Source: Sistotremastrum niveocremeum HHB9708 | Taxonomy: Eukaryota > Basidiomycota > Agaricomycetes > Sistotremastrales > Sistotremastraceae | Assembly (NCBI GenBank): GCA_001630475.1 | Contig: KV419401.1 | Span: 748,468 to 811,602 of the forward strand | DNA length: 63,135 bases | Direction: 5' to 3' | In this document: positions 18,201-61,600 of the stretch, in pieces | Layout of the letters: every line of letters begins with the position of its first letter | Position numbering within the stretch: position 1 is the stretch's first letter | Position numbers and translations under genes: made by a program | Notes under the pieces: generated by a model | What the model saw: only the letters and a program-made list of their open reading frames with translations | The model's database searches: none | What the model was told of the DNA's origin: nothing

Positions 18201-21200
18201 CGTCGCTACCAACACCGAGGCCAATCAGTGTCTCATCTTCCGCCTAAAGCTTTGAACACACCGGTTATCGCGTCCAACGAGATCTACGAAATTCATCATG
18301 AGCTTAAGCGAATGAGGAGACGAGAATGAGGGGAGGGGGAGAATGGGGAGGAAGGGAGGAAGGGAGGAAGGGAGGAAGGGATAGGGGGAGGACGCACAGT
18401 AATACTAATAGTCGTACCCCCATAACTAGCCTCAGCGATCAACGATGCCCTAACAGGCCCATTTTCAGCGATTGAGATGTTCGAGAATGCAATTGGGTGA
18501 GGCGTCTCAAGGTGGTGGATCTCGATATCTAGTCACTTGAGTGAGTATTTCTTGTTCATATGGAAGAGAGGCATGGAAGGGGACGTACCCCATGCATCCC
18601 AGTAATTAGGTCGATCATTGTACCAGATCAATCCACCTGATTCACCATCAGGAATGAGCTCCCTCCTACACAACACGAACAAACTTTAGTGAGCGAACGA
18701 AGAAAGCCGCAAAGATGGAGTAGACTGACCCAAGGACGACATCGATCAGACTCGTAATCCTCCCCTCCTCAATGGTCAACTGCACGTTCGAATTCCCTAA
18801 CACGAATTTATCGCCTTCGGTCCATGCTACCCCTCTCACATCAGCTTCCCTCAAAACAATTAAGGGACAAGAAATGTACCAGATGCAGGTTTGATATCGG
18901 CGAACAAGCCTCTCGGTGCGACGACTCCTGCGCCTTCAGAAGCGGAAGAATCCATCAAATAATACCCCACATTCCCATCCTTAGAAATCTGCACTGCTTC
19001 GCCTCTCATCCCATTTCCTTTGACACCAGTACCGAGAGGAAGACCAATAACAGCACGCCGAGCGAAAGGGAGAGTATTGTACCCTATTATCGAACCTTTA
19101 TCCGAGGACTCGGGGAGAGATGAGGAGGAAGGGGAGAAGGGGAGGGAGATGGAAGAAGGGAAGAGAGCTTGGAATGCTTCTTCGAGAATTTGATGGCCTG
19201 CTTTTGATACTTCCGCGTAGAGCTTTTCAGCGTCGTCGTAGACCATTCCACTATCATATGGTCAGATGCGTCGGTCGAGTGATGAGGGATGACGTACATT
19301 GCTGATCCGGGGAGGACTGAGTTCATAGCTATGATTAGCGACGATTAAAGATTACCGGAGAGGTAGCATACCATCATGGACTACGCATTTGATTAGATCG
19401 AAGACACAATATGATAGACGAAAGCTCACATTGATTCAACAACACCTTCTCCCACGCATCATCAATCTTGCTCTTCGGATATATATACCCTTCTTTCCCG
19501 AATAACGAAGCCAGAGTCGCAACATGCTACATCCGAGACCAACCTTCAGAATCAACACGTAACAGAAGGCGAAGTGGGAGAACGAACCTCGACGTCACGG
19601 AGGAGGATCTCGGATTTCCTGTTACCTTTCTTGATCGAGCCTGGTACCAGTCAGTACTTTGATCTGAGTTGGAAGAGGCGAGGGTTCAAACCATGCGAAG
19701 TGTACGTGCCACGATGGAACTAGTGAATAACCTTACGTAAGCCGGAGCACTGGACGAACGTGAACACTGCGTACCTCGAGATAGAGTTCGCCGTGCCTAT
19801 TCAACACACGTCAAAAGTGGAAGCTTGGGAAAGAATAGCGAGGACGTACCAATTGGGCAGAACTTTACCTGCCTTACTACTCTCATCCAAATGGTCGAAG
19901 AAATCGTCTACTGAGTATCCCATATTCACAACTGGCAATTCACGCGATTCATTTGTCGCTGCGCGGATACGACGGAGCTATCCAGTCTCATGAGCATCGG
20001 CGAAATGAGGGCGGAGAGGGGTACGAACGTTCTCTAACATCTTGGAGAGAGGGCCGCCTCCGCCGTCGCCGTTTCCGAATACGAGAAGGGAGGTTTGGCT
20101 TGATTCGAGGTTCTAAATATATATTGTCAGCTGAGAATATAATAGAGGGAGGGTTAAGAAGACCTTATGGTTGTGAATTCCTTTTTGGATATCTCCGACT
20201 GTTGCTTGAGCCGTATATGTATCTGCCGTCATCGTAAATCCTTCGATAGAACCAAAGAGATAACAATGACGAACCGACTGGAGTCATGTGGCATAGTATT
20301 TGAGTTCCGTCGATACCGACCCAGTTGAATGTTGAATGTGGGAAGACGTTGCTAGTGTATTGTTAGATATATGAACTTGGTTGAGGGCGGCAGATTCCTA
20401 CATGTTATTCCTAGGGAGTGTTAGACTAGGATTATGATAGGAAAGATGTGACGTACCATGAGAGCTTCTGGGTGAAGAAATGTTTCATTCCAGCGCTTCG
20501 GATGATCTGAGGGAGAGCACCGTTAAGGCCAAATGAGTCGGGCAGCCTGCACCGCATGACGAACTTCAGTACGGACGCGTATACGAAGAAGAATGGAATC
20601 ATACCATGCCGTTTCGCATCTCTTTCCAAACCGACTCTCGAAATACCTTTGACCGAAAATCATCTGTCTCGCAAAAGCCTCTCCAGAAGGCATATTTCCA
20701 TCATGTTCGACCCACGCTCCACCAACAGGTTGAAATTGTCCCGAGATAATCTTCTCCTTCACCTTCTCGAATAGTTTCGGATAGAGCTGTTCGAGCCATT
20801 TGAATTGCTGAGCCGAGCTACATGTAAAGCGATGCTCGGGATAGCGTTCCATGAGATCGACTTGGGTAGACCATGATCGGGCGACTTTTTGTTGGGTGGA
20901 GCTGTAGGGCCAAAGCCAGGCCGTGTCGATGTGACAATGACCAATTCCCCAAACTTGCGCCGTCTTCTCTCCCTCATCATACACCTTCGCACCCTTCTCC
21001 GCCCACCCCTCCCCAAACACCTGTTCCGCAGCCTTCCTCGCCTTCCCAACACTCTTCAAATCCCCCGAATCAAAGATATTCAATATCTCATTAGCAACTT
21101 TGAGCGCTTTATTCTGAATGATGGAGTTGCCGGGAAGACTCTGAGTAAGTTCTTTAAGAGTTTGAAAGTCCCAGAGAAGATGCCATGCTTCTTGATTAGG

Positions 21201-21988
21201 GACGACAAGGTCGGCTGAATCGAGAGTGTAGTATCTGTTCATGTCGGGAGGTTCGATCGTGTCGCCGTTCCAGGGGACACCGAACATTCCGTTACAGCTT
21301 GATTCGATGACGAATTCGTGAGTGCCTTTCTTGCGGTCGGAGAGGGGGATGATGTATTCGACGCGACGATCGCCTCCGTATCCTCCTGTTATGCCTTGGA
21401 GAGGTGTTCCTTCGGTTGAGAATATCATTGCTTCGCATCCCGGGTCAAACTCGACTGAATGGCCATTAGATATCGTTTGCATGAGGAGACTAGTCGACGT
21501 ACATTGAACGCGTTCGTATTTGGTCCAGTCTGATGGGATGTGCACGGTCACTTTCCACCAATGATTCGACTATGAACAAAATCAGCTGGGTAAGTCCTTA
21601 CGTTAAACCAAAGTACTGACCCCTAGAGTCCATGTCAGCCCCAATTTGAAATGTGCTGGATAGTAAATGACTCACAGGAAGGTCCAAACCTATCTCCCTT
21701 CTTAGCAGGTTTGAACTTCTGCTTCACGGCCTCATCAAACGAAGGCTTCGTCAATCCAGGCGCACTCCAGACTTGAAGCTTAACATGCTTCTCATCATCA
21801 AGTCGATGCGTGAACAAAGCCGAAGACAAATTAACAGAGGAGTAATGTCCTCCAACGAACTGATCAAGACGACCTTGAGTCAATGACTTGACCCATTTGG
21901 CGCCTGGTTTCAAATTGAGCTCTGCATAGGATGCAGCTGTCTGGACTGTTTCCGGAGGTGGATGGTGGTGATGGTGGTGATGAGCCAT
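15264..21988 (-). CDS. GH38 alpha-mannosidase (Ams1-type, cytosol/vacuole)
   Basis: Twenty-seven exons, from 21676-21988 to 15264-15318, sum to 3645 nt and encode 1214 residues. The protein starts MAHHHHHHH, and the early part reads LNLKPGAKWVKSLTQGRLDQF. The GH38 catalytic core contains GIGHCHIDTAWLWPYSS near residue 300 (the Asp is the nucleophile region of the family), then FGLNGALPQIIRSAGMKHFF and FNWVGIDGTQILCHMTPVDTY. The C-terminal beta domains include GFACHGNV and APDAEQDQGKHEF. There is no signal peptide, as expected for the Ams1 type, which degrades free oligomannosides in cytosol or vacuole. Unusual points are a probable 2-nt exon (21621-21622), two 9-nt exons (20402-20410, 19372-19380) and a 1538-bp intron. 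An upstream in-frame start at 22084 would add 32 residues. Confidence 0.92.
16051..17588. repeat. 1538-bp intron filled with degenerate purine-rich tandem repeat
   Basis: This intron of the mannosidase gene splits the codons of APDAEQDQ|GKHEF and has normal GT and AG borders on the minus strand. It is about 25-30 times longer than most other introns in the window. The plus strand is highly purine-rich. The word GAAGATTGACGAGAATCG and close variants recur about eight times (near 16093, 16254, 16499, 16737, 16867, 16997, 17112 and 17355), interleaved with AACGATGAACGATGAAGA-type words. Long Leu/Ser/Phe-rich minus-strand open frames here result from the low-complexity composition. Confidence 0.8.
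18346..18381. repeat. GGAAGGGA microsatellite in an intron
   Basis: About four tandem copies of an 8-bp GGGAGGAA unit lie in an intron of the mannosidase gene, between the exons 18262-18283 and 18398-18528. Confidence 0.75.
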
Positions 21989-24849: not shown

Positions 24850-26808
24850 ATGTCTGTTCGTCTCCCAGTTTTCTCTTCGCCTTTAGGTTCACTGTGCTAA
24901 CACTTTAATACCTGCTAGATTTCCGCTCGTGACCATGTGGCCCGTCATCTTCTTCGAGACGCTGCTCGCTCCTACAGAGGGCGCCCAACCAAACACACCG
25001 CCGTCCAAGCTACCCAAGGCAGGATCGGCATCATCGGTGCCGGACTGGCTGGTCTCTATGCTGGGCTTATCCTTCAAGACCTAGGATATCAGTTCGAGAT
25101 CATTGAAGCCAATCCAGAACGAATCGGCGGTCGGATCTACACATACTACTTCTCCAAAACCCCATCTGTGCCTGGGTATGGGTTCGATTACTACGATGTC
25201 GGAGCTATGCGATTCCCCAATATCCCTTGGATGAAGCGCGTATTCGACCTCTTCGACCTTCTCCAAGTTCCCCAAATTCCCTACTACTTATCAGCCGATA
25301 ACACCGTTCTGTACCTCAATAGCCAACGCTATCCGGCCACAGAGACTCAAGTCGGCAAAGGAGACATATTCAAGGTCTCTGTCAGCTCAGGCGGAACTGT
25401 CCCCGACGCGTTCCTCAACCCTCCTTATCCCGATCCTACCCAATCGTCATCCCCCGATCAATACTGGTGGAGCGCTGCTCTCGCTACACTCCGCGATCCA
25501 TTCAAAGCCTTGAACGATGTCGACCCAGAGCACATCCAGGAAGCCGAAGCGAAAGCCTGGGCCAACCTCGTAACCTACGACACTCAGTCCACTCGCGGAT
25601 ATCTATTGAATTTTGGATATCCCGAGTCAGTCGTTGAGTGGCTTGAGACCAATCAGAGTGCCACGGGACTGTACGACGAAGCGATCACCGAAACAGTCAT
25701 CGACTCGTTGGATTTCGATTGGCCTGCTGGAAGTCCACAACGCGCCGCTGGTTTCCCGGCAGCTCATCCTCCATCCGCTCGCTCAGGCAACGCGGATGAC
25801 ACTCCTCCTTGGGTCTGCATCGAAGGCGGATCGAGCGTCGTAACTGACGCTTTGGCTAAGAAAATCACCCCCAATAATCCAATCTTACTCGGTCAACGTG
25901 CCTTCAAAGTATCCCTCGCCGACTCCACTACGGGACAACTCGATGTCTCCTACGCTAGTCCTGGCGGACAAACTCTTACTCGCTCTTACTCCCAAGTAAT
26001 CTGTACCGTCCCTCTGGGATGTCTCGATGCCATTGATACGTCCAGCATTGGACTCGGCTACGAACAGAACGCTGCGATCCGCTCTCTGCAGTACGATTCG
26101 TCCTGTAAAGTGGGCATCAAGTTCGCCAAAAGGTGGTGGGAATATCTGCCCAAGCCTGTCTTCGGAGGCGTGTCCAGTACGGATTTGCCCATCCGCACCG
26201 TCGTATATCCCTCCTACGGCTTGAAGAGCGAGTCCGGACCTCCCGTCGAAGGTCAACCGGGCATACTCATTGCATCTTACACATGGGCACAAGATGCTCG
26301 CCGTCTCGGATCCTTAGCAAAGGACGGAGCGAGACTAAAATATCCCAAAGACGACCCGCTCATTCAAGTCACTCTCGATAACCTGGCAGCGATGCACGGA
26401 ATCTCACGAGAGGATATGGGCCCTGTTCTCGACGCGTATTCGTACAGCTGGTACGATGATATCAATACTCGTGGAGCCTTCGCATTGTTCGGCCCGGGTC
26501 AATTCTCTCAACAGGCGGTTGGTGGACAAGGTCTGTTCGCCGCGCTCAAGGTCCCGAATAATACCGGGACCTTCCACATTGCCGGCGAAGCCACGTCGAT
26601 TCATCATGCGTGGTTCTTGGGCGCGTTGAATTCTGCTTGGAGGGCTGTTTATAACGTTCTCATGACTCTCGGGGACGCCCAAGGCCTAGCGAAACTCCAG
26701 AAGAATTGGGGTGTTCCTGATGAATTCGAAGTCGAGACGCTCAACACACTCCATGGCATCGTCACAGGATTACCTCCACTGTCGCACCGAACCAAGACCG
26801 ACTTGTGA
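24850..26808 (+). CDS. FAD-dependent L-amino-acid-oxidase-like enzyme
   Basis: A 6-nt first exon (ATG TCT, 24850-24855), a 63-bp intron and one long exon (24919-26808) give 631 residues starting MSISARDHVARHLLRD. If splicing is wrong, an in-frame ATG at 24937 gives 623 residues. The dinucleotide-binding motif GIIGAGLAGLYAG is at about residues 39-51, with the follow-on EANPERIGGRIYTYY. Near the C terminus the amine-oxidase signature FHIAGEATSIHHAWFLGAL binds FAD. These features match flavin amine oxidases, in particular fungal L-amino-acid oxidases, which turn amino acids into keto acids, ammonia and H2O2. There is no signal peptide. Exact substrate preference cannot be read from sequence. 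Confidence 0.88.
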
Positions 26809-28738: not shown

Positions 28739-30870
28739 ATGATCACCCTCAGTGTCACCCGTTGGGCGTCGATTTCACTGCAGGCTCTGTGCATCGCTTT
28801 GATAGCACTTCTTATTCGAGTCTTATTGGGCCCGTTTTCGACATGGTGTCCAATTGCATTTGGTTATCGCAGGTATCAGGCCATAAAGCTCACCGCACTC
28901 CACGACCTTCCCAGCTTGGGCAAGCGCAGGGCCAAGGATAAGCTCATCGAGGGGACAGCCGTGATCGCAGGCGGAAGGTAAGCGACAGTGAATGAATTTG
29001 AAGGAACTTGAATGGCTGAATTGTTACTCCAGCGTTGCTGGCCTCTTAACAGCAAGAGTTTGTTCGGCACACTTCACTCGCGTTCTCGTGGTTGAGCCCG
29101 AAGAGTGGACCTCAACACCAGCCGCCCTTTCTCATGAATCTCAGCACCCCAAGGGAGGCTCGCAGAAGAGCTTCAACCCGCGCCCGCGAGTCCAGCAGTA
29201 CAACTCCGTACACAATTATCAAATCTTCACTTATCTTGCTCTGAAAGAGATGTTCCCTGATATAGAGGCTGAAGCTCGCACCATCGATCCCATAACTGTT
29301 GCGTCTTGCGATCTCCACGTCTATCCGCTGGGCAGATATCTGAGGCCCCCCATTGCTTTTTATAAAGGCTCTCTCCCGAAGTTCCTCTCCATTACTCGCC
29401 ATGGATATGAAACACTATTACGTAAGCTAGTGAAGAACACCTGCAGTAACGTTGAATTCGTCACTGGTACCGTCACCGGTCTTAATACCGAGCCTGTTGG
29501 TTTCAACGGGATCGACGACAGCAAACCCGCACGGCATATTGTACGCAGTGTGACAATTCGCTCTAAGCAGGGCCTGAAAAGCAACGAGCCCACGCTTTTT
29601 GTGATCGGTTAGTGTTCTTCGATCTCTCGGCTTCGACTATTGCTGAACTCTGTTTAGATTGTACCGGGCCTACAATGGCAGCTCTGAAATGGATTTCTGC
29701 TCGGGATGCGCCCGTGGAAATACCGAGACAAGTGTATGACCACAAGTTGTACTACGTCAATCGCGAGTACCATGTGGACCCTTCTGCCATGGAAGCAGTA
29801 TGTATTCCTGGAGGGTATGCCAACGCCAGCATAGTCTACATCTTCTATCCCGACTCCCGTCTGGACCATCGCATCTTGATGATCATGAGGCGAGAAAACA
29901 ATAAACGTAAACTTTTTGTTGTGTTCTTCGCGTTTGATTTATTAATCTGATCTTCAGTTCAATTCGTCTGCGGTGGATGGGACATGGCCGACCGCCCCCG
30001 ATCTGCTGCGGATATCCGTGCATTCGCCTCTGACATCAAAAGCGCGTGCCTCATACCGGACTATGTGTTCCAGATCTTGGACGTTCTTGAAAAGAATAAT
30101 TGTGATAAGTCCGCCACTTTCAACGACATAAGAGTTCGTAAGTATGATTTCATTTTCGCTCAGCGTTGATGGTGTTTGTCTCTTATGTACTTCCCTAGCC
30201 CCTGCTTATTTCAATCAATATCATAAGGTCATAGATCAAATTCCTAGCAACCTAATCGCCGTTGGGGATTCTGTTATGAGAGTCAACCCTGTCCGAGGGT
30301 TTGTATTGTTCATGCATCCGTCGGTCACCACCTTACTGAAACCCATTCGGTCAAACCAGTCATGGTTGTACGAAAGCAATGATAGGAGCTGCTACCCTTT
30401 CCGGCATCCTGCACGAGTGTCGGCCTGTCAACGCTGCAGATTCATCTCTTCAAGATCTTCCGCATGATTTTGCGAGAACATTCTGGACGCGTCAGAACAA
30501 TCGAACCCAGCCCATCTGGGAACAGCTCAAGAGTGAAGATTACGGATGGAGCACTACGATTCCAGTAGAAGGAGAGATTCTGGATCACGGTGCACCTGTT
30601 CGTTGGTACACGCGGAACCTCTTCTGTGCTGCTTCCCAGGTCTGTATTCCTCTTGACCAGCTTCATTCCTATTCACATCCGTCACTCAAACTCAGGACGA
30701 AAGTATCGCTGCTGCTGTGTACAGCAGCGCTATGTTCATTGCTCCCAACTCCGATGTCACGACTCCGAGTATTGCTTTCTGTGTCGCATTGGCCGGTGTC
30801 AAGGTACGCACGCCGCAAGTGTAATTTACAACACTCATTACGTCTTCAGGAATACTTCGGGTTCTGCTGA
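28739..30870 (+). CDS. membrane-anchored FAD monooxygenase-like protein, copy 1
   Basis: Eight exons (28739-28977, 29033-29607, 29658-29906, 29958-30137, 30199-30298, 30360-30639, 30696-30803, 30850-30870) total 1752 nt and encode 583 residues. A hydrophobic helix at about residues 12-32 anchors the N terminus. The Rossmann motif AVIAGGSVAGLLTARVC follows (about 74-90), then YETLLRKLV, DCTGP and the flavin-contact motif AVGDSVMRVNPVRG. This pattern fits group-A flavoprotein monooxygenases and is especially like bacterial FAD-dependent oxidoreductases with an IGGSxAGLL start. Five further copies follow on the minus strand, and copy 1 is the only one on the plus strand. The reaction is probably hydroxylation or epoxidation of a hydrophobic substrate, but that is inferred from the fold. 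Confidence 0.85.
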
Positions 30871-31028: not shown

Positions 31029-33111
31029 TCAATTATGAAATCCCAGATATTCCTGAAGTGAGATTGTCAGGTTTTCGAAGGACCAAAGTCTCGCAGCAAC
31101 ATACTTTGAGTCCAGCCCAAGCAACCATCAAAGCGATTCTCGGACTGATGACGTCAGAGGCAGGTGCGATGAACATAGAGCTATTAAAGAGGACAGCCGC
31201 GGCATATTCGTTCTAAGACTATAATTCAAAGACTGTTCAAAAGGCATAGCAAAAACCACTCACTTTCGTAGTAAGGTCAACGAAATGCCGAGCATACCAT
31301 CGAAGGAAAGCGCCGTCTTTCAATGTTTCGCCTTCAACGGGTACGGTTGTATCCCACCCATAGTCATCTGCTTTAGTCTCTATCCAAAGGGATTCGATAC
31401 GTTTGAACTGTGTCTTGTAGAAAGTTTTCGCGAAGTTATGAGGAAGGACTTGGGTTGCCGTGTGAATGTCGAGGAGGGGCTGGCATTGGTGGAGAAGACC
31501 GGAGAGAGTGGCAGCGCCGAGCATGGCCTTGGTGCAGCCTTGTCTAGATCATGTGAACTTTAATTCGGTTCTCGAAAGGCGAGAGCGAGGATGTATGACG
31601 TACCCTCGGACCGGATTGAGACGCATCACAGAGTCACCGAGCGAGATCAGATTCGTAGGAAGTCTATCAGCAACTTCATGATACTTGACAAAATAGCATG
31701 GAGCTAAAACACGAAACGCAAGGATTGGTCAACGGGAAAATGAATCAGGGGTAGAATATTCTGACGGCATCTGTCATCATGAAAAGTAGCTGACGCGTCA
31801 CAGCCGTTATCTTCGAGCGCATCCAGGATTTGGAAGATATATGTAGGAATGGGCTCGGCTCCTTTGATCTGTTTCAGGAACGTCCGAATATCATCGACGG
31901 ATCTCGGACGATCAGTAACGTCCCAACCGCCACAAGAGATCTGCACTACAAAGCACAATCAGCACAGCTTCAAAATTTACAAGATAGAGCTTACGGGTGC
32001 TATTTTCACGCCTGAACATCAACATCGTCCGACGTTCAATCCGTGAATCCGGAAGGCCGACATAAAAAGCCCGAGCGTTTATATATCCGCCTGGAAATTC
32101 GACTTTTTCCATGATAGCTGGGTCGACTTCGAATTCACAGGTGGTGTAGTGCATTTGGGGATCATAGACGTCTTTCGGGACTTGAAGAGATTTATCGGGC
32201 GCATTAATCCATTTTAGGCCTGCCATGGTGGGACCCGTGCAATCTGACGTGCTGACTGTCAGCAGTAATTCTTGACATAGAACCTAACAACTCACCAACA
32301 ACAAGTAGTACAGGTTCAGTCGTCTCGACGCCATCTTTGGAGCGTATATTTACGCTTCGAACGCGCCGGCCGAAGCCATCAGCTTGATGACTGGGATCCG
32401 AGTTGATGCCGGTGACAGTTCCCACAATAAACTCGACGTTTTCGCACTCCTTCCTTACGAACTTCCTCAATAGAGTCTCATAAGAAGGACGGGCTACGCT
32501 CAGGAGCTTTGGAAGATTCCCCTTATAGAATTCAAGAGGCGCTTTCATTGGTTTACCATTGAAATGGAACTTGACATCGCCTGAGATGATGGCGTCGGGA
32601 TCGATTTTGCGAGATTCAGCTTCAAAGGAGGGGAACATTTGGTTAAGTCCCAGGAGGGTGAGGACATGGTAATTGTGTAGGGATATGTACTGCTGCACGC
32701 GGGTTCGAGGATTGGGTTTCTTTCCGTTTCCTTCTTTTGTGAAATAAGTATCGTCAACTGTACCAGCCGCTGTCGAAAGCCAGCCTTCGGGCTCGACGAC
32801 GAGAACGCGGGAGAAGTGGTTCGAGCAAACTTTTGCAGTTAAAAGCCCAGCGATACTAGGATGCGTGGCGCGTCAGCACATGCACGCTCATGCTCAACCT
32901 CAGCCACGTACCTTCCACCAGCAACCACCACAGTTCCAGCTATACGTTTGCCATCAACTCTCTGCGTTCCTAAACCACCTAGCTCGTTCAGAACAGTGGT
33001 TTCTGCGATCTGCTTATTGCGATACCATCGCCCAAAGAGCAAGGTAGTGGCCGTGATCAGACCTATGACGGAAGCGATGAAGGGCAAGGTGGTTCCAGTG
33101 AGGAGGGGCAT
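31029..33111 (-). CDS. membrane-anchored FAD monooxygenase-like protein, copy 2
   Basis: The gene starts MPLLTGTTLPFIASVIGLIT (the membrane helix) and ends EYLGFHN. All conserved blocks of copy 1 are present in order: VVVAGG at the end of exon 1, RVQQYISLHNY, LSVARPSYETLLRKFV, DCTGPTMAGLKWI, CGGWDVTDRPRS, SLGDSVMRLNPVRGQGCTKA, and a last long exon with VPVEGETLKDGAFLRWY. Introns fall at the same positions as in copy 1. No frameshift or stop was seen, so this copy looks functional. It converges tail-to-tail on copy 1, with only 158 bp between the stops. Confidence 0.82.
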
Positions 33112-37177: not shown

Positions 37178-39304
37178 TCACACACCAAGACCAAGATAAT
37201 TCTAGAATGAAACCCCGTGAAATTCAGGTTATACCAAGCGACAGTAAGGCCACACCTTCAATCCCGTCCAAAACACTCGGACCGCAATCCCAGGACGGAT
37301 TGCATAACAAGCAGGTGTAATGAGCATCGTGATATCATAAAGAGTAGCTGCCACATCTTCATTCTTGACCATTCATCAGAGACGTACAGGTCGATCTAAG
37401 TAGTCAACTCACTTTAAAAGCAACATCCAAAAGAGTCCTATTATACCACCTCACAAAAGCCCCATCTTTCAAGCTTTCTCCTTCAACAGGTATAGTCGTA
37501 TCCCAATTATAATCAGCTGCTTTCGTAGTAGTCCAAAACGAGTAGGTGCGTTTATTTTGGCTTTCCCAGAATCTCTTGCCGAAGTTCTGAGGGAGGAATA
37601 CTCCGGATGAGAGGAGATTTGATACAGGCTTGCAACTCCGCAGAAGGCCATTGAGTGTAGCAGCCCCTATCATAGCCTTTATACATCCTTGACTGTTTGG
37701 AAGGGATTAGATTTCCCATGATCGAAGCTTTGTAGGTAGAACTCACCCTCGGATGGGATTGAGTATCATCAAGGAATCGCCAATAGCAATGAAATTATTC
37801 GGGAGTTGATCAGCAACCTCATGATACTTGACGAAAGAGAAAGGCGCTACATTTCGCAAAGTAAGATGAGACGCCTCAAGGAGCATGATATAGATACGTA
37901 CCGCATCTCGCATCGAGGTAGGCTGCGGACTCTTCACAATGATCCTCGAGTATATCCAACAACTGATATACATAGGCAGGAACCGGATCAGGACCTGCGA
38001 ACTTGGCGATCACAGTACGAATATCGGCAATGCACTTGGGTCGATCAAAGACATCATATCCACCGCAAGCAACATGGACTGAGATCCCGATCAAAATCAG
38101 CTGAACATCGAGAGGTAATTGACGTACGCGTATTGTGCTCGCGCTTTATAATATACAGACTGCGAGGATCGTGCTTCATCCGAGGATCGGAGTTGCGGGT
38201 GAAGATGGTCCTGGCATTGGCGTAACCCCCGGGTATTTGAAGCTTGTCCATTAGGCTAGGTTCAACGTCGAAAATACAAGTGGTGTAGCATATTTTGGGG
38301 TTATAGACGTCTTTGGCGATTTTGCAGGGGTTGGTAGAATTAGCAATCCATTTGAGGCCCGCTTGAGCAGAGCCCGTACAGTCTAGCAAGGTATCAGTAG
38401 TTGCATGCACCGAAGGCTATAACGCTTCTTACCAACAAGCAGGATTGCAGGCTCTATAGTCTCAAGCCCATCCTTTGAGCGGATCGTGACGCTTTTGATT
38501 TGACTAGCGCCGGTCCCTTGAGGGCCTGCTTTGCCATCGAGCTGATACCCCGTGACGAAACCAGACAGAAATTCGACATTATCACAGTCTCTCTTCACAA
38601 GTCTTCGAAGCAACGTTTCATAAGTCGGCCGTCCGACGTTCAAGTGCTTCGGCAAGTCACCCTTGTAATGTGCAAGGGGTGGTTTCAGGTGTTTATTCCC
38701 GATGTACACTTTGCTATCAGCATGGACGATGGCTTGAGGATCGACCTTTAACGCCTCGACTTCGATATCGGGGAAGAGTTCTTTTAGCGCCCAGAGTGTG
38801 AGGACTTGGAAATTGTGGCCGGATGTATATTGCATAACGCGTGGACGAGGGTTGAATATCTTTCTGTTCTTTCCTTCAGAAGCAGTAGCAGGAGCACCCG
38901 GTTCTTCGAAAGGGGTTGCAGAGGTTGAAAGCATGGTGTCGGGCTCGACGATTAGAACACGAGTGAAGTGAGTTGAACATATTTGTGCAGTCAACAGTCC
39001 GGCGATACTGAAAGACTTAGTATCAGAATGCTACACCCGAGCTCAAAGATAGCGCCACGTACCTGCCTCCCGCAATCACAACCGTTCCATCAATAAGCCT
39101 CCCTCCTTGTCTTGGCTTTCCTAATTTGGGGAGTTCATGAAGAATTGTGATTTGGCCGATTTTCCAATAACGTCGTCTAAAAACGTAGGCGCGGAAGAGG
39201 AGGATAGAGACGAGACTGAAGGATAGGAAGATGATAGTTCGAGATCGCGGCAAGACGGAGTCGAGAGGCACAGTCATAGGACTAGTGAAGCGATAAAGAC
39301 ACAT
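37178..39304 (-). CDS. membrane-anchored FAD monooxygenase-like protein, copy 4
   Basis: The frame starts MCLYRFTSPMTVPLDSVLPR (an alternative start MTVPLDSVL is nine codons later), followed by a strong hydrophobic helix (IIFLSFSLVSILLFRAYVF) and TVVIAGG. The blocks LNVGRPTYETLLRRLV, DCTGSAQAGLKWIANS, CGGYDVFDRPKC and IAIGDSLMILNPIRG are intact, and the last exons end NYLGLGV. The YETLLR region is intact here, in contrast to its sister copy 3. The product should be an integral or membrane-associated flavoenzyme with the catalytic domain on one membrane face; the substrate is unknown. Confidence 0.82.
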
Positions 39305-42992: not shown

Positions 42993-45162
42993 TCAATTAG
43001 TAAAACCCAGATACTCCTATAACGAGGACTGTTAGTAGCCGTGGTATACAACGAGAAGCCGGCATGCCTTTATTCCAGCCCAAAGAACACGAATAACAAT
43101 ACCAGGGCTGATCGCATCAGAACCAGGGGCAATAAACATCGAACTGTTGTAAAGAACCGTGGCCACGTGCTCATTCTTGGCATAGCGATTAGAACGAGGC
43201 TGGGGAACAATACTTGTGAGAGTCGAAATACCTTGAAAGCAACGCTTAGAAAGTTCCTGCCGTACCATCGAAGGAGAGCGCCGTCCTTCAAGGTCTCTCC
43301 TTCGACGGGTATGGTAGATTCCCAACCGTAGTCACCTGCTTTTGATTCCGTCCATAGCGGTGCAATACGATCGGAGTGACGTTCCCAAAACTTCTTTCCG
43401 AAATCCTTGGGAAGGTACACATCGGATGACTCCGTGTCAAAGATAGGCATGGTCTGATTCAGAACACCAGAGAGCGTCGCGGCGCCAATCATGGCTTTGG
43501 TACATCCTTGACTATTTCAGATGACATAGTTAATTTTGACATGACTAGTGGAATGAAGAACAGCGGATGACTTGCCTCCGAGCAGGGTTCAATCTCATTA
43601 CAGAATCGCCGATAGCAATGAAATTGGTGGGGACCTTATCGAGGACATCATGATATTTGGTAAAATAGCACGGTGCTAGTATTCACGACGTAAAGTCAGG
43701 AATGTATACTGCCGGAGAAGTGGAATAAGATACTCACCACATTTGGCGTCGGTATACGTAGCAGATTCACCACATTTATTGAGCTCGAGTACGTCCAGGA
43801 TTTGAAACACGTATCCGGGAACAGGCTCGGCTTCAGAACTCTTAAATCCGGAGATGAAAGTGCGGAGGTCATCAATAGATCTAGGACGATCAGAGATATC
43901 CCAGCCGCCGCATGCGATCTGGACTTCATACACCAAGTGATACGCTTGAATGACTAGCGAAGGATGACGGATGACAGACTTACGAGTGTTGTGTTCACGT
44001 TTAAATATATAAAGCGTACGGCGATCAGTACGTGGGTCCGGGATGTAGAGAAGAATGCCCCGCGCATTGCCATAACCTTCGGAAACTTCGACCTTGTCCA
44101 TCATGGAGGGTTGGACCTCGAATTCACAAGTGGTATAAAACATCTTCGGATCGTAAATGTCTTTCGCCACTTTAAGTGGATGTGAAGGACTGGAAACCCA
44201 TTTCAAGCCGGCTTGCGTTGGACCTGTGCAGTCTGAAAGGCAAGTTAGCATGATGCTCGAAAGCGGAAATTGGAAACTTACCGATGAGAAGAAGAGCTGG
44301 CTCAGTAGTCTCTGCGCCGTCTTTTGAACGGATAGTGACACTCCGAACACGCTGACGGGTGCTATCGGGGCCTTGTTTTCCGGCAACTTGGAAACCCGTT
44401 ACGATGCCTGTGGCAAATTCGACGTTATCGCAGTTGCGTCGCACGAGCTTTCTCAACAGTGTCTCATATGTCGGCCGCCCAATGCTCAAGTGCATTGACG
44501 AAGCACCCTGATAACAGCTGTCAGGGACACTCAAGCGTCGACCTCCGACGAGAACGTTGATATCAGGGCGAGCGATGGCATCTGGGTCAATCTTGCGGAC
44601 TTCGTCTTCGAAATCCGGGAACATCTCTTTGAGTGCAAGATAGGTATAGATGTGATAGTTGTGCATCGAGTTGTATTGCATAACACGAGTTCGAGGGTTC
44701 GGCTTCATTCCGTCAACTCCCTCGCCGACGCGCGGATCGTGAGCAAGACCGGCGGTGGTCGAGAGCCATGCCTCGGGCTCGACGATGACAACACGGGTGA
44801 AGTGATTCGAGCAGACCCTTGCAGCCAGTAATCCGGCGATGCTGAGGGGCACATATACATATAAATGTTTGGCTTCGCTGAGATCGATAGATCACATACC
44901 TTCCTCCAGCAACCACAGCTGTTCCATCAATCCGCCTTTCACCATATCTACGCTTTCCCAAGTTCGGCAGTTCTCGTAAGATGCTCGGTTCTCCGACCGT
45001 CTCCCTGTGCCACCTGGCAACATAGCACACCAAAGAACCGAAAGCTAAGCTACAGATGATGTAAATGGCTTGGGGCTGGGGAATGAAGTGGTCCATGAGC
45101 GAGGCCACGATAGGATTGATGGCCGGCATTGCGTGCGGTACAAAATGATCCTCAAAGATCAA
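42993..45162 (-). CDS. membrane-anchored FAD monooxygenase-like protein, copy 5
   Basis: The frame starts MIFEDHFVPHAMPAINPIVA; later in-frame starts at 45129 and 45099 are also possible. The membrane helix is AIYIICSLAFGSLVCYVA. The conserved blocks AVVAGG, LSIGRPTYETLLRKLV, DCTGPTQAGLKWVSS, CGGWDISDRPRS and IAIGDSVMRLNPAR follow, ending EYLGFTN. Two introns appear to start with GC instead of GT: after NPAR (giving SQGCTKA) and before the last exon (donor GCATGC near 43064). The glycine that normally follows NPVR is replaced by serine. Otherwise it is intact. Confidence 0.8.
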
Positions 45163-46611: not shown

Positions 46612-48725
46612 TTAGACTCTGGAGGCGAATAGTTCCTGTATCTGCATGAGTCATGCGCTGATAATGAAACTAAGGCACATACCTTGAAACCTTGCCAAAT
46701 TACTTGGACAGCGATACCGGGACTAATGACATCTGTAGGCGGAGCAAGGAACATGGCACTATTGTATCCGACGGCAGCGACATCCTTGTTCTATATTGCG
46801 ATGTCAGATACACATTATCCAGGTAGACGTGAAACCACTCACTCTGCACGAAACCTTGAAGAAATTTCTCGTATACCAACGGATGAAAGCACCCTTCTCC
46901 AAAGTCTCTCCTTCGACCGGAACAGTAGTCTTCCATCCATAATCTGCAGTCTTGGTCTGATTCCAGATCGACTTCGTCCGGGGCGTATGACGTTCCCAGA
47001 ATATTTTGCCGAATTCGTCGGGAAGGACTTCACGGGATGTGTTGGAGTGGAAGACGGGATTGCAGCTTTGTAGGATGCCGGAGAGAGTGACGGCGCCTAT
47101 CATGGCTTTTGTGCACCCTTGGCTATTTGATGCACTCTCAGTTCATGATCGACGGTTCACGGAGTAAACTTACCCTCGGATAGGATTTACTCGGATGACT
47201 GAATCACCAAGAGCGATCAAATTACTTGGGAGTTTCTCTGCCACTTCATGATACTTGACAAAGGTGGAGGGTGCTGTTTATAGTAATTATTAAGCGCCGT
47301 CGTACGTACACAAAGTCATATTGGGTGGATACTCACGAACTTTCACGTCGGTGTATGTGGCGGAGGCGTCACAATCGTTGGTTTCAAGCGAATCGAGGAG
47401 CTTGAAGACGTAATGGGGGATTGGCTCCAGGCTCTTGATCTGCGAAATGAAAGTGCGGACATCGGCGACCGATCTAGGACGAGCGGCCATAGCCCATCCA
47501 CCACAGACAATCTGTACTTTTAACCCAGAAATCAGAATATAGTCCAAAACCCACTGGCAAAAAGCGAAGGACGTACGTGTATTTTTCTCGCGCTTGAAGA
47601 TCATCATACTCTGATCGCTCACAGCAGGATCAGGAACGAAGACGTAGACAACCGGAATTTTTGAATAGCCTCGTGGGATCTGGATGTTTGCCATGATAGC
47701 AGGATCGACATAGTACTCGCAACTGGTGTAGTACATTTTCGGGTCATAGATATCCCTAGGCACTTTGACGGGTTTAGACGACGCGGAAAGCCACTTGAGG
47801 GAAGCTGAAACTGGACCCGTGCAGTCTGTCGAGCTTTTTGAGTAGATGCCTCGACGCGACGCAGACTTGACTTACCGATGAGAAGGAGGGCAGGTTCCGT
47901 GGTCTCGACACCGTCCTTCGATCGGATAGTAACACTCTGTACACGATGGCCAGTTCCAGCACCCTCTAGACCTTGGCTAGGACCATCCACATCAATGTCC
48001 ATACCCGTGACGGTTCCAATGACGAATTCGACGTTATCGCAGTTCTTCCTGACAAGTTTTCTCAACAAAGTCTCATAAGCCGGACGACTTAGACTGAGGA
48101 AGTTCGGAAGTTTGCCGTCATAGAAGTCATAGGGTGCCTCCATATGTCTTCCGCTCATGTGAAGCTGAAGATCACAAGGAACGATTGAAGCTGGATCGAT
48201 TTTGAGAGCTTCGGTTTCGAGATCGGGGAACATCTCTTTGAGGGCGCGATAGGTGAAAACTTGATAACTGTGGACGGAAGTATACTGCTGGACGCGAGAG
48301 CGTGTGTTAGGCTTTTTTCCATGCTCAGCCTTCGCGAGACGGGCTTCGTCTGAGAGGCCTTCTTCTGTGGAGGTCCATGCTTCGGGTTCGACGATGAGGA
48401 CGCGAGCGAAATGCGTGGAGCAGACTCTAGCCGCCAACAAGCCTGCGACACTGTGAAGGCAAAAATGTCTCAGTGCTCAGCTTATCGAAAATTAATGAGC
48501 GGTCAAAGCGTACCTTCCACCGGCGATGATAGCAGTTCCGTCGATGCGTTTGCCCTCTTTCCTCGGCTTCCCTAATCCGGGGAGATCATTCAAAGCTGTG
48601 AGCTTTTCAACGATACGATCACGACGGCTCTTCAGGAAGGGACGCGAGAAGAAAGAGAGAGTCGCGATGAAACAAAGTAGATACAGAAGCTGAGTCGGCA
48701 GAAATGCCAAAATTTGAGACAGCAT
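46612..48725 (-). CDS. membrane-anchored FAD monooxygenase-like protein, copy 6
   Basis: It starts MLSQILAFLPTQLLYLLCFI with a clear N-terminal membrane helix, then KRIDGTAIIAGG. The blocks RVQQYTSVHSY, LSLSRPAYETLLRKLV, DCTGPVSASLKWLSAS-like, CGGWAMAARPRS, LGDSVIRVNPIRG and VPVEGETLEKGAFIRWY are intact. The last exons end QVIWQGFKELFASRV, a tail unlike the EYLGF ending of the other copies. Introns are at the family positions. It is nearest to the P450 gene downstream, with which it is divergently arranged across about 1.1 kb. Confidence 0.82.
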
Positions 48726-53763: not shown

Positions 53764-54445
53764 TTAGTTTTGGGCTATCGCCTCTGCATATCTCCTCTCA
53801 GCCTCGAACCAGTTGATAACATTCCATATTTCCTTGAGATACTACGTCCAGAGTTTCAGCAGGCTCAAATGTCCGATTAAATCAAGACCTCACCTTTCTT
53901 TTGTCGTTAAGATATTTAAGATAGTATGCGTGTTCCCAAATATCCACGCCAATCAATGGAGAGGAACCCGACAACGGATCCTGATTCGCAGTTGTGGCGA
54001 TCTCCAATCTCCCTGATCTGTCTGAACCGAGCCATCCCCAGCCACTGCCTTGAATGCGGCTAGTGGTAAGGTTGAACTCCTCTTTGAACTGTTCAACAGA
54101 TCCCCAATGTTCGACGATGGCGGTCTTCAATTTCCCGTCAACGAGGACCCCACCGACGTCCTGCTGTACATCGGTTGTAGAGGGATGGCCGGCAGAGTGA
54201 GATGGGGCGAGATTCTTCCAGAAGAGAGAGTGATTGATGTGACCCCCTTCATTGAAAGCCTTCACCCGGATGGCATCGTCGCGTTCGGGTCCAGGAGGAA
54301 GGGTTTGTAGAGAAAGCTCCGCTTTGTTGAATGAATCAACGTAAGTCTGATGGTGTACCAAGTGGTGAAGCAGCATGATCTGCTCAGTGATGTGAGGCTC
54401 GAGAGCATCATGCGAATATGGGAGATCGGGGAGAGTATAGACCAT
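53764..54445 (-). CDS. manganese superoxide dismutase
   Basis: Exons 53894-54445 and 53764-53841 encode 209 residues starting [20 protein letters not shown]. The Fe/Mn SOD metal ligands are visible: His27 in [12 protein letters not shown], His72 in [13 protein letters not shown], and Asp168 and His172 in [11 protein letters not shown]. Gly-rich GSGWGWLG and the C-terminal [12 protein letters not shown] fit the family. It converts superoxide to H2O2 and O2. No mitochondrial presequence is visible, so it is probably the cytosolic type. It lies between the two exonuclease paralogs, all three on the minus strand. Confidence 0.95.
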
Positions 54446-55371
54446 GTTCAGTGCGCGTCAACAAGAGAAGAGGTGTCGAGGTATACGATGCTTGGGAGTC
54501 GGAACTCAAGGGCTGTTCACACAGGACGAGAACTTATAAAGCCGTTCACACTTCCCCCACCTTTTTTTTGTGTCGTGACATCGAAACCCTAGACCTAAGA
54601 GTGTGCGTCGATGACCATTCAACCGAGAGGATCATGAAGTCAACTGTATACACATACGTCATGAGGAAGTTAGACTAGAAGCCAGCGTGAGATCGGGGTC
54701 AGATATTTCGTAAAGCAAGGGGCATTGGTCTAAATGTGCAGAACCCCAGAACTTTACACATAGGCCTTGAAAAAGGGTAGCTTGCGAGAAGTGTGTTAAT
54801 TTACTTCAGTCGTGCGCCCAAACTTTGAAAGCGAACGTGACCTTCAACGTTCTGAGAAAATATTCAGTCCGCTAATCAACATATCGATGAAGCTTTGCAT
54901 TGTCAAGCATACAGAGCACTGGCTGCAATGAATTCAGCTCGCATACAATCCAATACTTTGACGAGAAAGCAGAAAAGCATTTCGTTAGAGGGTCATCCGA
55001 AGCTCGAACGTTCAAAGTCATCTCGTCAGGGAGAAGAAATATATCGTTCGCGATTGCATTCATCTTACATCGGTAGATCGACTGAGATTTAACAAACAAA
55101 GGAGCTTTGTCGCACACAAGCTGATCACCTGTCCCATGGACTCCCAAGGAACGAAGCCTGGCGATGGCAACATTGCTCCAAGAGACACGGAGATGAAGTA
55201 GAGGTGACTGTAAACGATCGGAAGCTCTCGAACAAACCCTTGAACTCGTCAGTATCATGTAGCTTTTGGGAGGTTCCTTCGATATGACCAGGATTGAAAG
55301 TCCGCGATCGCAGCCGGAAGCTCAAGCGCCAGAGAGTCTAGATCTTTACCATTGATATTGTGGGTTGTGTC
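54446..55371. other. intergenic
   Basis: Promoter of the SOD gene and about 800 bp of further DNA. Minus-strand open frames at 54872-55258 and 55125-55325 show no motif and overlap each other in different frames, so I do not call them genes. Confidence 0.45.
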
Positions 55372-58472: not shown

Positions 58473-61400
58473 ATGGGACCTCCCTTCGTACGGCGAACGC
58501 AACCAAAGAGCAATGGCGTTACCCTGCGTCAACTTCTGTCAACGCCTCGGAAACCCGAGGGCCAAGTTCTCGTGCAAGCACTCAACCGAATAATCGAGAA
58601 TGAGGATCAGGAGTTGAAAATTCTGAAAGGACCCGATGCTCAGAAGATGATGGAATTGATACAGGACGTGAGCTCATAACTTCCATCCATTCTATTCACT
58701 GACTTGCGTATTGCGAAGGCGATGGATTATTGCTCGCCCACAGATCCTTTGCGTGACCACTTGTTTAAACGTCTGAAGCAGATATTTCGTAATGCGGATG
58801 TGGACGCACCCGCTTTCCTCAAGCTCTCGAATACGGATCCTAAGGATATGGAATGGCTGCATCATGCAAACGGCGGATTTTCTAACATCTACAAGACTCC
58901 ACCGTTATTTCCAGAGGACAAATCGTGGGTTTTGAAAGTCCCGAGGTGTACAGAAAAGAGTCGCGATACCAAAGCCACTCAGAAGGTATCTAAACTGCGT
59001 TTCCCAGTCGAACTCAAGCCGCTAAACTGGGCCCAGGCTATCGAAGAGTTTATACTTTGGCGTCAACTGAAGCACGAAAATATTCTTCCGTTCCTGGGCG
59101 TGTGCGAGTATAATGGAATCTGGGGCGGAGTCTCTCCCTGGATGACCCAGGGAGATCTCTGCAAATACTTGGTAGACAATCCCGAGGTTGATCGGTTGCC
59201 GCTAGTACGTCGTGGATTGATATCTCACAAGCCCAAGGTGCCATACGTCTCTAGATAATTGGCATTATCTCAGCTGTAAAGTACTTACACGTAAGCGTTC
59301 CTCATTGTATTCATCGCGACATCAAACCGGTAAGTAACCTACTTACCCCTCTACGTTTTGCTCGCGGTCCTAACCTTTCTTGGATAGAACAATATATTGA
59401 TTGGTGACGATGGAACCCCTTTGCTAGGCGATTTTGGTCTTTCCTCCGTCAAATACGACTACACGAAGAATATAACGACTGCCACGGCGGGCGGCACAAT
59501 CATGTACATGCCGCCGGAATGGCTGCTAGACACGAACACTTCTGCAACCATGTCGAGCGATGTCTATTCCCTCAGCGTAACAATAGCCGAAGTTCTCACT
59601 GGAAAGGCTCCCTATCACCAACAGCAAGCACATCCCATCATCTTGGCTCACAGAAACATTTCCCCGTTCGAGAAACCATTTCCGCTTTTGAAGTTGACTG
59701 CCCGAGACGATGACGTCAAAGAGTTCTGGAGGTTGATGGAGCGCTGTTGGAATCGTGAAGCTCAGCAAAGACCGCACGTTTCAGATCTTTATTCTTGGTT
59801 CACCAAGTTGCAAGAGACTACATCCTCAGGCGAGAGGGTGCAAGGAAAGGTTGGATACGAAGCCGTCACAATGGTACTTTTTTCTAACGTATCCCAAAAG
59901 CGCTGCATCTTCATCCCAAAGAAGAACTGTGGATATCTCATAGGGAGGAACGGGTCTCGAGTGAAGCACTTACAAGCAAAATACAAAGTTCAGATACGTT
60001 TGGGCTCGAACTCCGATGGCGATACTCGCGAAGCTGAAATTACCGGGAGTCCTCGGAATGTTGCTCTAAGCATCGACCAAATTGAGCAGGTCAGTGATCA
60101 GTTTTCTCCAAAGTCATGGCATCTGTACTGACCGCAGCGAATCGCAGATACTCCGAAATATTCCTCCCAAAAATGCGCCTAATTCGACTAAATCTTTCAA
60201 ATCCCCCAAACCTGCGGCGCAGCTCCGGGTGGCATCGACACCGGTTGTTGCACCTACTTCGAAAAAGCCATCCGTTGGCAGGAAAGTTCGATCGCAGTCT
60301 TCTGTGCCAATAACCGCAGTGGGTCAAAAGATCGTCCTCACTACACAATCCGTGTCGGACTTCGATCATTCTGAACGTATTGGAGGATTGGGATGGGGCC
60401 CTATATATCCCTTTCTACTGCAGTCATCTGCAGCATGGAGTGCCATAATCGAACGGTGGGGTGGCTCGAAGGATGAAGAAATCCAGAGAAGGATGATAGA
60501 CATGTGAATCTTTCCATTCTCGCAACAAACCGTGTTATTCATTCAAACACAGCAATCGCCTGGAACACAGAATTACGATTCATGGGCCGAAGAAGGTCGT
60601 TGAGAAGATCGTCAACGATCTCAAAGCGAAATCGCAAGGATACCAAGTGAAGGGGGTTATCGTCCCCACTTGGTTGATCGCGGAGGTCGAGGGTCTGAAA
60701 GAAGGAGGGCTATTGGCGTGGAAGAAAGAAACAGGAGCCAGTATTCTTCGCCCAGACTCTCCTCACTATATCCACAATGCTGCAAGAAATGCGCCAGACC
60801 TCGAAGCGAAGGCTTCTGAAACAATTCTCAAGATTATTGGGTCCGTTGAAGCCTGTATGTCAGTGTATCGAGACATTAAGGTGCGCCGGTAGTGTCTTCC
60901 GATGCTACTTGAATTGGTGAATTCCTAATCGAGCAACTAGGCATTTGTGTCAAAGCGTCGTGCCGAATGTTGCAGGTTTAATTTTCCTGCCAAACATCAT
61001 CATTATTTGATGCAGCAAATTCGAAAGCTCTGCGCAGCCCACGTTCAATTCCTGGATGTCGATGATATTCCAGCTCATCCCAGCGTACCTTCTAAGCCAG
61101 GTCCTGAACCTTCCCACTTTCCTTGGCGTGGCTTCACAAAAATCTCTCGATATCCTCCTGACAACGAAGCGGGGAATGACCGTGTATTGGATAGCAAAGG
61201 AAAAGACCATTGCATTTGGGAAGTCTGGCCTGGGCCTTCTCAGACCAAGGACGATATCGAATCCAAGGTCAGAAGTTTAGCAGACGACGCCTATGAAGCT
61301 CGCCGGATCGCGTGGATATGGTTGCCCATTGGCCTCAACTGCTCCCTCACTGATGGCCAGGTTCAAGAAGTAGAAGACGAAGCACACTGCGCCATAAAGT

Positions 61401-61600
61401 TGTGCGGACGTGACGTCATAGAGCTCTGTGGTACGTATCAGTCACATTATATGCCCTCTGGCTACATCTCACCTTCACCCGCCGCAGGTAGTAGTCGTGC
61501 TATCGATGATGCGCAAGAATCACTGGCTCAACGTTTGTTTTCAAGTTGGAAGCCACGTAGTCGCTCTATCCCAAGCCGATCGTCAACGCTATCAATCTGA
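58473..61600 (+). CDS. protein kinase fused to KH-like RNA-binding repeats
   Basis: Exons 58473-58667, 58719-59204, 59255-59329, 59388-60089, 60148-60503, 60571-60880 and 60941-61600 total 2784 nt and encode 927 residues. The kinase domain (about 105-370) shows a glycine-rich NGGFSNIYK loop, VLKVP lysine, HRDIKPNN (about 247), DFGLSS (about 267) and a YMPPEW activation-segment end, close to the TKL-like kinases common in mushrooms. After it comes a canonical KH domain (about 415-486) with the GxxG loop GRNG. Further KH-like stretches follow (ITIHGPKKVVEKIVNDLKAK, then VPTWLIAEVEGLKEGGLLAW...ETGASI) without a clean GxxG. A basic linker (SPKPAAQLRVA...KKPSVGRKVRSQSS) joins the first and second. 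An alternative 57-nt intron near 61431 would shorten it by 19 residues. RNA-linked signalling is inferred. Confidence 0.8.

Follow-up and report, generated by a model that had tools for sequence, protein, structure and literature searches.

Kinases with RNA-binding modules are known; PKR, GCN2, and KIS/UHMK1 combine a kinase domain with a module that binds RNA or the ribosome. We know of no KH domains in these three proteins nor, to our knowledge, of any other kinase that contains them. No kinase-KH or kinase-vigilin fusion was recognized among the papers listed in searches of the open-licence PMC literature.

Among kinases that act on the ribosome, ZAK-alpha monitors the mRNA exit channel via RACK1, RPS27, 18S rRNA, and the mRNA, and it becomes active on ribosomes that have stalled or collided (PMC13293227; PMC12823453). 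The FslK lineage of kinases is expanded in Agaricomycetes; extra domains were reported in 16 of its 241 members, and its authors state that the exact functions of these kinases in mushrooms remain to be determined (PMC3937382).

The multi-KH protein Scp160 is found on polysomes and binds over 1000 mRNAs; its KH domains are required, but not sufficient, for the polysome association, and the C-terminus of the yeast protein was crosslinked to eIF1A and Asc1 (PMC6492140). Its ribosome association was repeatedly found to be lowered without Asc1, as noted by PMC6912217, whereas in the own data of that study more, not less, Scp160 was caught near Rps2 when Asc1 was missing. The central KH domains of human HDLBP account for most of its binding to coding sequences and 18S rRNA, and the five C-terminal KH domains of human vigilin bound an mRNA region more weakly than the full protein did (PMC9117268).

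Here, we describe a gene at 58473–61600 (+) in a window of 63,135 nt, the whole stretch of DNA that was analyzed (positions 748468–811602 of its contig), from the genome of Sistotremastrum niveocremeum HHB9708 (34.7 Mb, 111 contigs). The gene arose, with high probability, by in-frame fusion of a TKL-like kinase with a genomic copy of the 3′ part of Scp160, the part that encodes the KH units K9–K14.

Gene Structure

The gene model was built by hand from the sequence and read from ATG to stop in one open frame of nine exons and 897 aa. The start codon was the first in-frame ATG past an upstream stop. All nine exons were open, and every intron was of the GT-AG type. Exons 1 and 2 (58473–58667 and 58719–58985) encoded an N-terminal extension, the glycine loop and Lys138, and exons 3 and 4 (59037–59204 and 59255–59329) the remaining N-lobe and the HRD catalytic loop. 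They were followed by exon 5 (59388–60089) and by exons 6–9 (60148–60503, 60553–60880, 60941–61430, and 61488–61600). The last intron (61431–61487) was in frame, and its retention would give 916 aa in eight exons; it was taken as real because its position matched that of an Scp160 intron. The seven exons and ~927 aa of the initial annotation were replaced by this model. Its junction 60089/60148 was recovered unchanged; from its junction 60503–60571 the donor side (60503) was kept, but the following exon begins at 60553 here. An in-frame AG lying 18 nt downstream of the acceptor before 60553, found by eye, would fit the earlier position 60571.

Exon 5 (702 nt, without a stop) ran from just past the HRD loop, via DFG, PPE and the kinase C-lobe, into KH unit A in a single open frame. 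Since the C-lobe and unit A occupied one uninterrupted exon, the two are fused whatever the splicing, and the fusion is not an artefact of the gene model. A kinase and a canonical KH domain are encoded by one gene. Splicing past 60089 is predicted from the sequence, and this could be taken to mean that two adjacent genes had been wrongly joined by the model. We rejected that explanation as highly improbable, because unit A shares the kinase exon and the introns downstream match those of Scp160.

Unit A (aa 395–469; 59865–60089, +) was the counterpart of K9, and its GRNG loop was intact at 59943 (aa 421). Pfam KH_1 matched aa 409–469 at 5.5e-14 (52.1 bits; cut-off, 21.5), and in a whole-genome profile scan the match had a value of 3.8e-12 and was one of at least 15 KH_1 matches. 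The score and the shared exon bear out the earlier proposal of a kinase running into a KH domain with a GRNG loop. The KH_1 profile match and the GxxG loop that define a type I KH domain were found together in unit A only, and units B–E did not qualify. The nearest PDB sequences to unit A were binders of ssDNA or RNA, such as FUSE-binding protein and PCBP2. When unit A was searched against the whole genome, Scp160 was not among the places listed at E ≤ 1.

Kinase Domain

The kinase half gave Pfam matches to Pkinase (7.4e-33, aa 132–369) and PK_Tyr_Ser-Thr (5.1e-31). The catalytic residues were placed at Lys138 (58935, +), HRD (aa 230; 59312, +), Asn237 (59391, +), DFG (aa 250; 59430, +), and PPE (aa 277; 59511, +). 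Both the Pkinase match and these residues identify a protein kinase fold with its catalytic Lys, HRD Asp, and DFG. The kinase had been called catalytically complete, and this agreed with the Lys, HRD, DFG, and PPE positions but not with the glycine loop, which read NGGFSNIY and lacked the third Gly of GxGxxG.

A CW(x)6RP motif was present at aa 355. The closest PDB sequences were RIPK4 and RIPK1, then plant receptor kinases, ABL1, B-raf, RIPK2/3, and EGFR (among the best 60 of 1845 matches). The kinase appears TKL/RIPK-like by sequence. It resembles the TKL kinases of Agaricomycetes and the FslK lineage in its TKL-like domain, the CW(x)6RP motif, and many genomic relatives, as far as these are described in PMC3937382 and PMC2838846. 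It differs from FslK in its KH tail, extra domains being reported in just the 16 members given above (PMC3937382), and the kinase may or may not belong to FslK.

In the own genome, the C-lobe query matched 19 places at E ≤ 0.001 (self 6e-97, the next 7.2e-13 at 29%), and the N-lobe query, at E ≤ 0.01, matched 55, including three exons of the gene itself, with the rest 26–50% identical; these scans match exon by exon, and the counts are lower bounds. The N-lobe matches sat mostly on the stretch WRQLxHxNxLPFLG. No close paralogue was among the matches listed for the two queries. With the next C-lobe match at only 29% and the N-lobe matches at 26–50%, this kinase stands at the margin of a large family. 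The genome scans found no second kinase-KH chimera. Searched against prokaryote genomes, exon 5 found one locus (L040), a bacterial match that covered query residues 1–83, the kinase part only.

Across the genome, there were 154 matches to PK_Tyr_Ser-Thr, which are exon pieces and not a gene count. Several were grouped on contigs C50, C42, C6, and C54, and this suggests a local expansion of TKL-like kinases.

The Vigilin Gene of the Same Genome

The exon 7 query found, at E ≤ 1 in the whole genome, itself and one other place (C2:825338–825658; E 0.119, 26%). That place falls inside a multi-KH gene on the minus strand (L034), whose model comprised 1256 residues with its first exon open. The protein contained 14 KH units as counted by hand. 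Pfam assigned it KH_1 (1.1e-83, with seven stretches passing individually) and KH_Vigilin (29.6 bits, above the cut-off of 27), the latter scoring 19.9, below the cut-off, on K9–K14 alone. Compared with PDB sequences, the model had 13 KH-protein matches, none of them named vigilin. From its domain content, we take this gene to be the Scp160/vigilin of this genome. The exon 8 query listed two other places (E 0.26 and 0.35), and Scp160 was not listed at E ≤ 1.

The GxxG loop was present in five of the six Scp160 units K9–K14. The exception, K13 (model residues about 1076–1123), carried a Pro-rich insertion and no GxxG, yet in the kinase tail it was one of the best-conserved segments. Its retention despite the missing loop hints that K13 may have a docking role in vigilins generally.

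Homology of the Tail to Scp160

By alignment, the tail (aa 395–881) is a copy of Scp160 units K9–K14, the six at its C-terminal end; it is colinear with them and ~25% identical. A blastp comparison of the two gave one alignment of 393 columns with 22.9% identity and 55.8 bits (tail 13–355 to Scp160 738–1115), and two further pieces of 16.5 bits. The best of 1000 residue shuffles reached 26.9 bits. Units B–E without unit A still scored 52.0 bits, against 29.3 for the best of 2000 shuffles, and the kinase half had no blastp match to Scp160. In the MAFFT alignments, identical columns numbered 115 (of 466) to 118 (of 464). Of the individual units, three only just outscored the best of 2000 shuffles (28.9 vs. 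28.5 bits for A, 27.3 vs. 26.9 for C, and 30.4 vs. 28.9 for D), two did not (18.9 vs. 25.0 bits for B and 15.8 vs. 24.6 for A2), and E had no match. The signal in these sequences resides in the joint, ordered match.

The order of the units was examined by scoring the hand-cut tail units against each of the 14 units of Scp160 and shuffling every pair 200 times. The local z values were 9.6 for A–K9 (7.7 for K12), 4.8 for B–K11, 9.0 for C–K12, 8.8 for D–K13 (6.4 for K14), 2.9 for E–K14 (3.0 for K11), and −1.6 for A2–K10. In global comparisons, B reached 6.3 and C 10.3, and E preferred K1 (2.2) over K14 (0.8). Summed along the diagonal, the order A–E on K9–K14 gave 33.4 locally and 29.0 globally, and the eight other offsets gave at most 4.5. 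Among the 2162160 free unit assignments, 74 locally and 173 globally scored as high, as is expected because A2 and E hold little signal. Sequence thus places units A, B, C, and D, order together with an intron places E, and A2 has only its position.

The C-terminal units share common descent with those of Scp160/vigilin, and about 14 tandem KH units are not found here; in terms of its sequence, the gene is a chimera with a piece of a vigilin and not a vigilin. The comparison with vigilin made in the initial annotation therefore holds as homology and not as analogy alone. Compared with Scp160/vigilin (HDLBP), the gene has the last six units in shared order and with shared introns, but it has a kinase instead of K1–K8 and has lost much from the units that remain.

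After unit A, a basic Ser/Pro/Lys-rich linker, A2 (aa 470–526; 60148–60318, +), occupies the place of K10, with all similarity gone. Unit B (aa 527–616; 60319–60503 and 60553–60637, +) and unit C (aa 617–701; 60638–60880 and 60941–60952, +) correspond to K11 and K12 and have lost GxxG. Unit D (aa 702–812; 60953–61285, +), the K13 counterpart, has kept a peptide well, FPAKHHHYLMQQ...DIPAHPSVPSKP in the tail against VPHKYHHFINQQ...SFPTKPAVPSGP in Scp160, with 15 of 43 residues identical in the stretch counted. Unit E (aa 813–881; 61286–61430 and 61488–61549, +), without GxxG and with a weak sequence signal, was set on K14 by its order and intron. Four of the five inherited GxxG loops are thus gone, and unit A alone retains its own.

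When the four later units were sent to Pfam singly, three had no family, and B had sub-threshold matches to the KH clan only (0.035 and 0.037). With exons 8 and 9 as a joint query, KH_1 matched over unit E but stayed below threshold (0.12). The later repeats had been described as KH-like without GxxG; the loss of the loop and, for the group, the homology to Scp160 KH units were confirmed, but a Pfam KH call above threshold was not obtained. No KH protein was among the five and seven matches of exons 7 and 8 to PDB sequences up to E 10. AlphaFold2 on exon 7, with single-sequence input, gave a mean pLDDT of 44.8. Exon 8 had two pattern matches and no relative among viral sequences.

The lost loops and the eroded K10 unit would also fit a tail that has become a protein-protein or autoinhibitory module, with its nucleic-acid and ribosome roles gone. 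We consider such a module distinctly unlikely, since the GRNG loop was kept in unit A together with its 52.1 bits to KH_1. The strong divergence of the tail, at about 25% identity, might further suggest a decaying gene with little or no expression and a frame left open by chance. However, nine exons remained open and the splice sites intact despite the divergence from Scp160, and decay is very improbable. With its frame kept at about 25% identity, the tail is either old or fast-evolving, and the chimera itself is probably old.

Shared Introns

The tail and Scp160 were aligned with MAFFT under three settings that took no account of introns. Three of the four tail introns coincided with Scp160 introns in both column and phase under all three settings: 60504–60552 (+, phase 2), 60881–60940 (+, phase 0), and 61431–61487 (+, phase 1, 57 nt). 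The fourth, 60090–60147 (+, phase 0), was six columns off in MAFFT and matched the Scp160 site in a gap-free alignment. There, the intron lies exactly 20 residues past the same KH strand in both proteins; this alignment was picked after the offset was seen, and 20 of 20000 shuffles scored as high. Of the five introns that Scp160 carries over this region, the one left over, in K14, has no equivalent in the kinase gene.

With uniform placement, the chance of such coincidence was 9e-8 for three of the four introns and 3e-11 for all four; with a restriction to 87 usable sites, these chances rose to 3.7e-4 and 2.2e-6, respectively. The introns of both genes come from our own models from sequence, and their coincidence in turn supports both the Scp160 and the kinase gene models. 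Since introns are shared, the tail would have been copied with its introns from genomic DNA at the 3′ end of the vigilin gene, and would be neither a retrocopy nor a new array. An array assembled independently of Scp160 might be considered because unit A has a further match in a different KH gene (an ORF at L035, E 4.4e-4; the best Scp160 ORF, 9.7e-5). It was rejected, and we regard it as extremely improbable, given that the order, the unit-specific matches, and the introns all track Scp160 K9–K14.

Possible Function of the Chimera

The copied tail may give the kinase a nucleic-acid or ribosome address, for which we consider the chances even. This reading of an RNA-addressed kinase draws on one intact GxxG loop and on the published properties of Scp160/vigilin. 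Against an address of this kind stand the four lost GxxG loops, the weaker mRNA binding of the C-terminal KH domains of human vigilin (PMC9117268), and the larger Scp160 catch near Rps2 when Asc1 was missing (PMC6912217). Taken jointly, the chimeric origin and an mRNA or ribosome address fall marginally short of an even chance. That the address is specifically ribosomal is a more tentative proposal, possible but short of probable.

Under the proposed mechanism, the tail would keep the role of the C-terminal end of Scp160, docking on mRNA under translation. Unit A, with the sole intact GxxG, would contact single-stranded RNA, and the other units, chiefly the counterparts of K13 and K14, would anchor the protein to the head of the 40S subunit close to Asc1/RACK1, the site at which the yeast Scp160 C-terminus reportedly binds. 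Because the copied part is the C-terminal part, docking by protein contact would be as likely as by RNA contact. The substrates of the docked kinase might then be ribosome-associated proteins or, in trans, another copy of the kinase met on a neighboring ribosome.

Another explanation is that unit A alone directs the kinase to particular RNAs or ssDNA off the ribosome, with the other units forming a structural or dimerising rod. Unit A is indeed the sole unit with GxxG and the sole one recognized by Pfam, and its nearest PDB sequences bind ssDNA or RNA (FUSE-binding protein, PCBP2). However, units C and D resemble their own Scp160 counterparts as strongly as unit A does, and a mere rod needs no such similarity. 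We therefore think this explanation somewhat unlikely.

If docking through the whole tail is right, the protein would be analogous to ZAK-alpha (MAP3K20) in having an N-terminal kinase and a C-terminal binder of RNA and of the RACK1 side of the 40S subunit; the likeness is one of analogy only. ZAK has a leucine zipper, SAM, YEATS-like, and RNA-binding C-terminal parts, and its ribosome-binding parts differ from those proposed here (PMC12823453; PMC13293227). No SAM domain was among the six Pfam families listed at E ≤ 10 for the present protein. An FPxL motif is named for RACK1 binding (PMC12823453), and by eye FPxL occurs once in this protein, inside the kinase C-lobe. We further speculated that the chimera could be an independently arisen fungal counterpart of ZAK-alpha, in which a TKL kinase on the Asc1/RACK1-binding end of vigilin would sense stalled or collided ribosomes, with unit A reading mRNA and, as the trigger, trans-autophosphorylation from one ribosome to its neighbor. 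By analogy this can be conceived, and we hold it to be doubtful.

If the tail still docks on polysomes, a TKL-like fungal kinase would be linked to translation, and the gene poses the testable question of whether there is a second, convergent route to a ribosome-addressed stress kinase. It could also serve as a natural dissection of vigilin, in which GxxG is mostly lost while the last units retain other segments, and which could separate RNA contact from docking.

Neighboring ORFs

Elsewhere in the window, five ORFs looked alike by eye (28992–29612, +; 32204–32872, −; 38383–39030, −; 44172–44891, −; 47619–48476, −) and appear to form a local array of paralogues with the common start ..AGLLTARVCSxHFxRVLxVEPE.., which we take to resemble the start of a flavoprotein oxidoreductase. 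Pfam, applied to each of the five, gave no family at E ≤ 1e-5. A long ORF of a flavin amine oxidoreductase was located at 24919–26808 (+; Amino_oxidase 1.8e-35). Pfam also identified an ORF of an iron/manganese superoxide dismutase at 53882–54457 (−) and an exon of a glycosyl hydrolase of family 38 (alpha-mannosidase, Ams1-like) at 20523–21569 (−).
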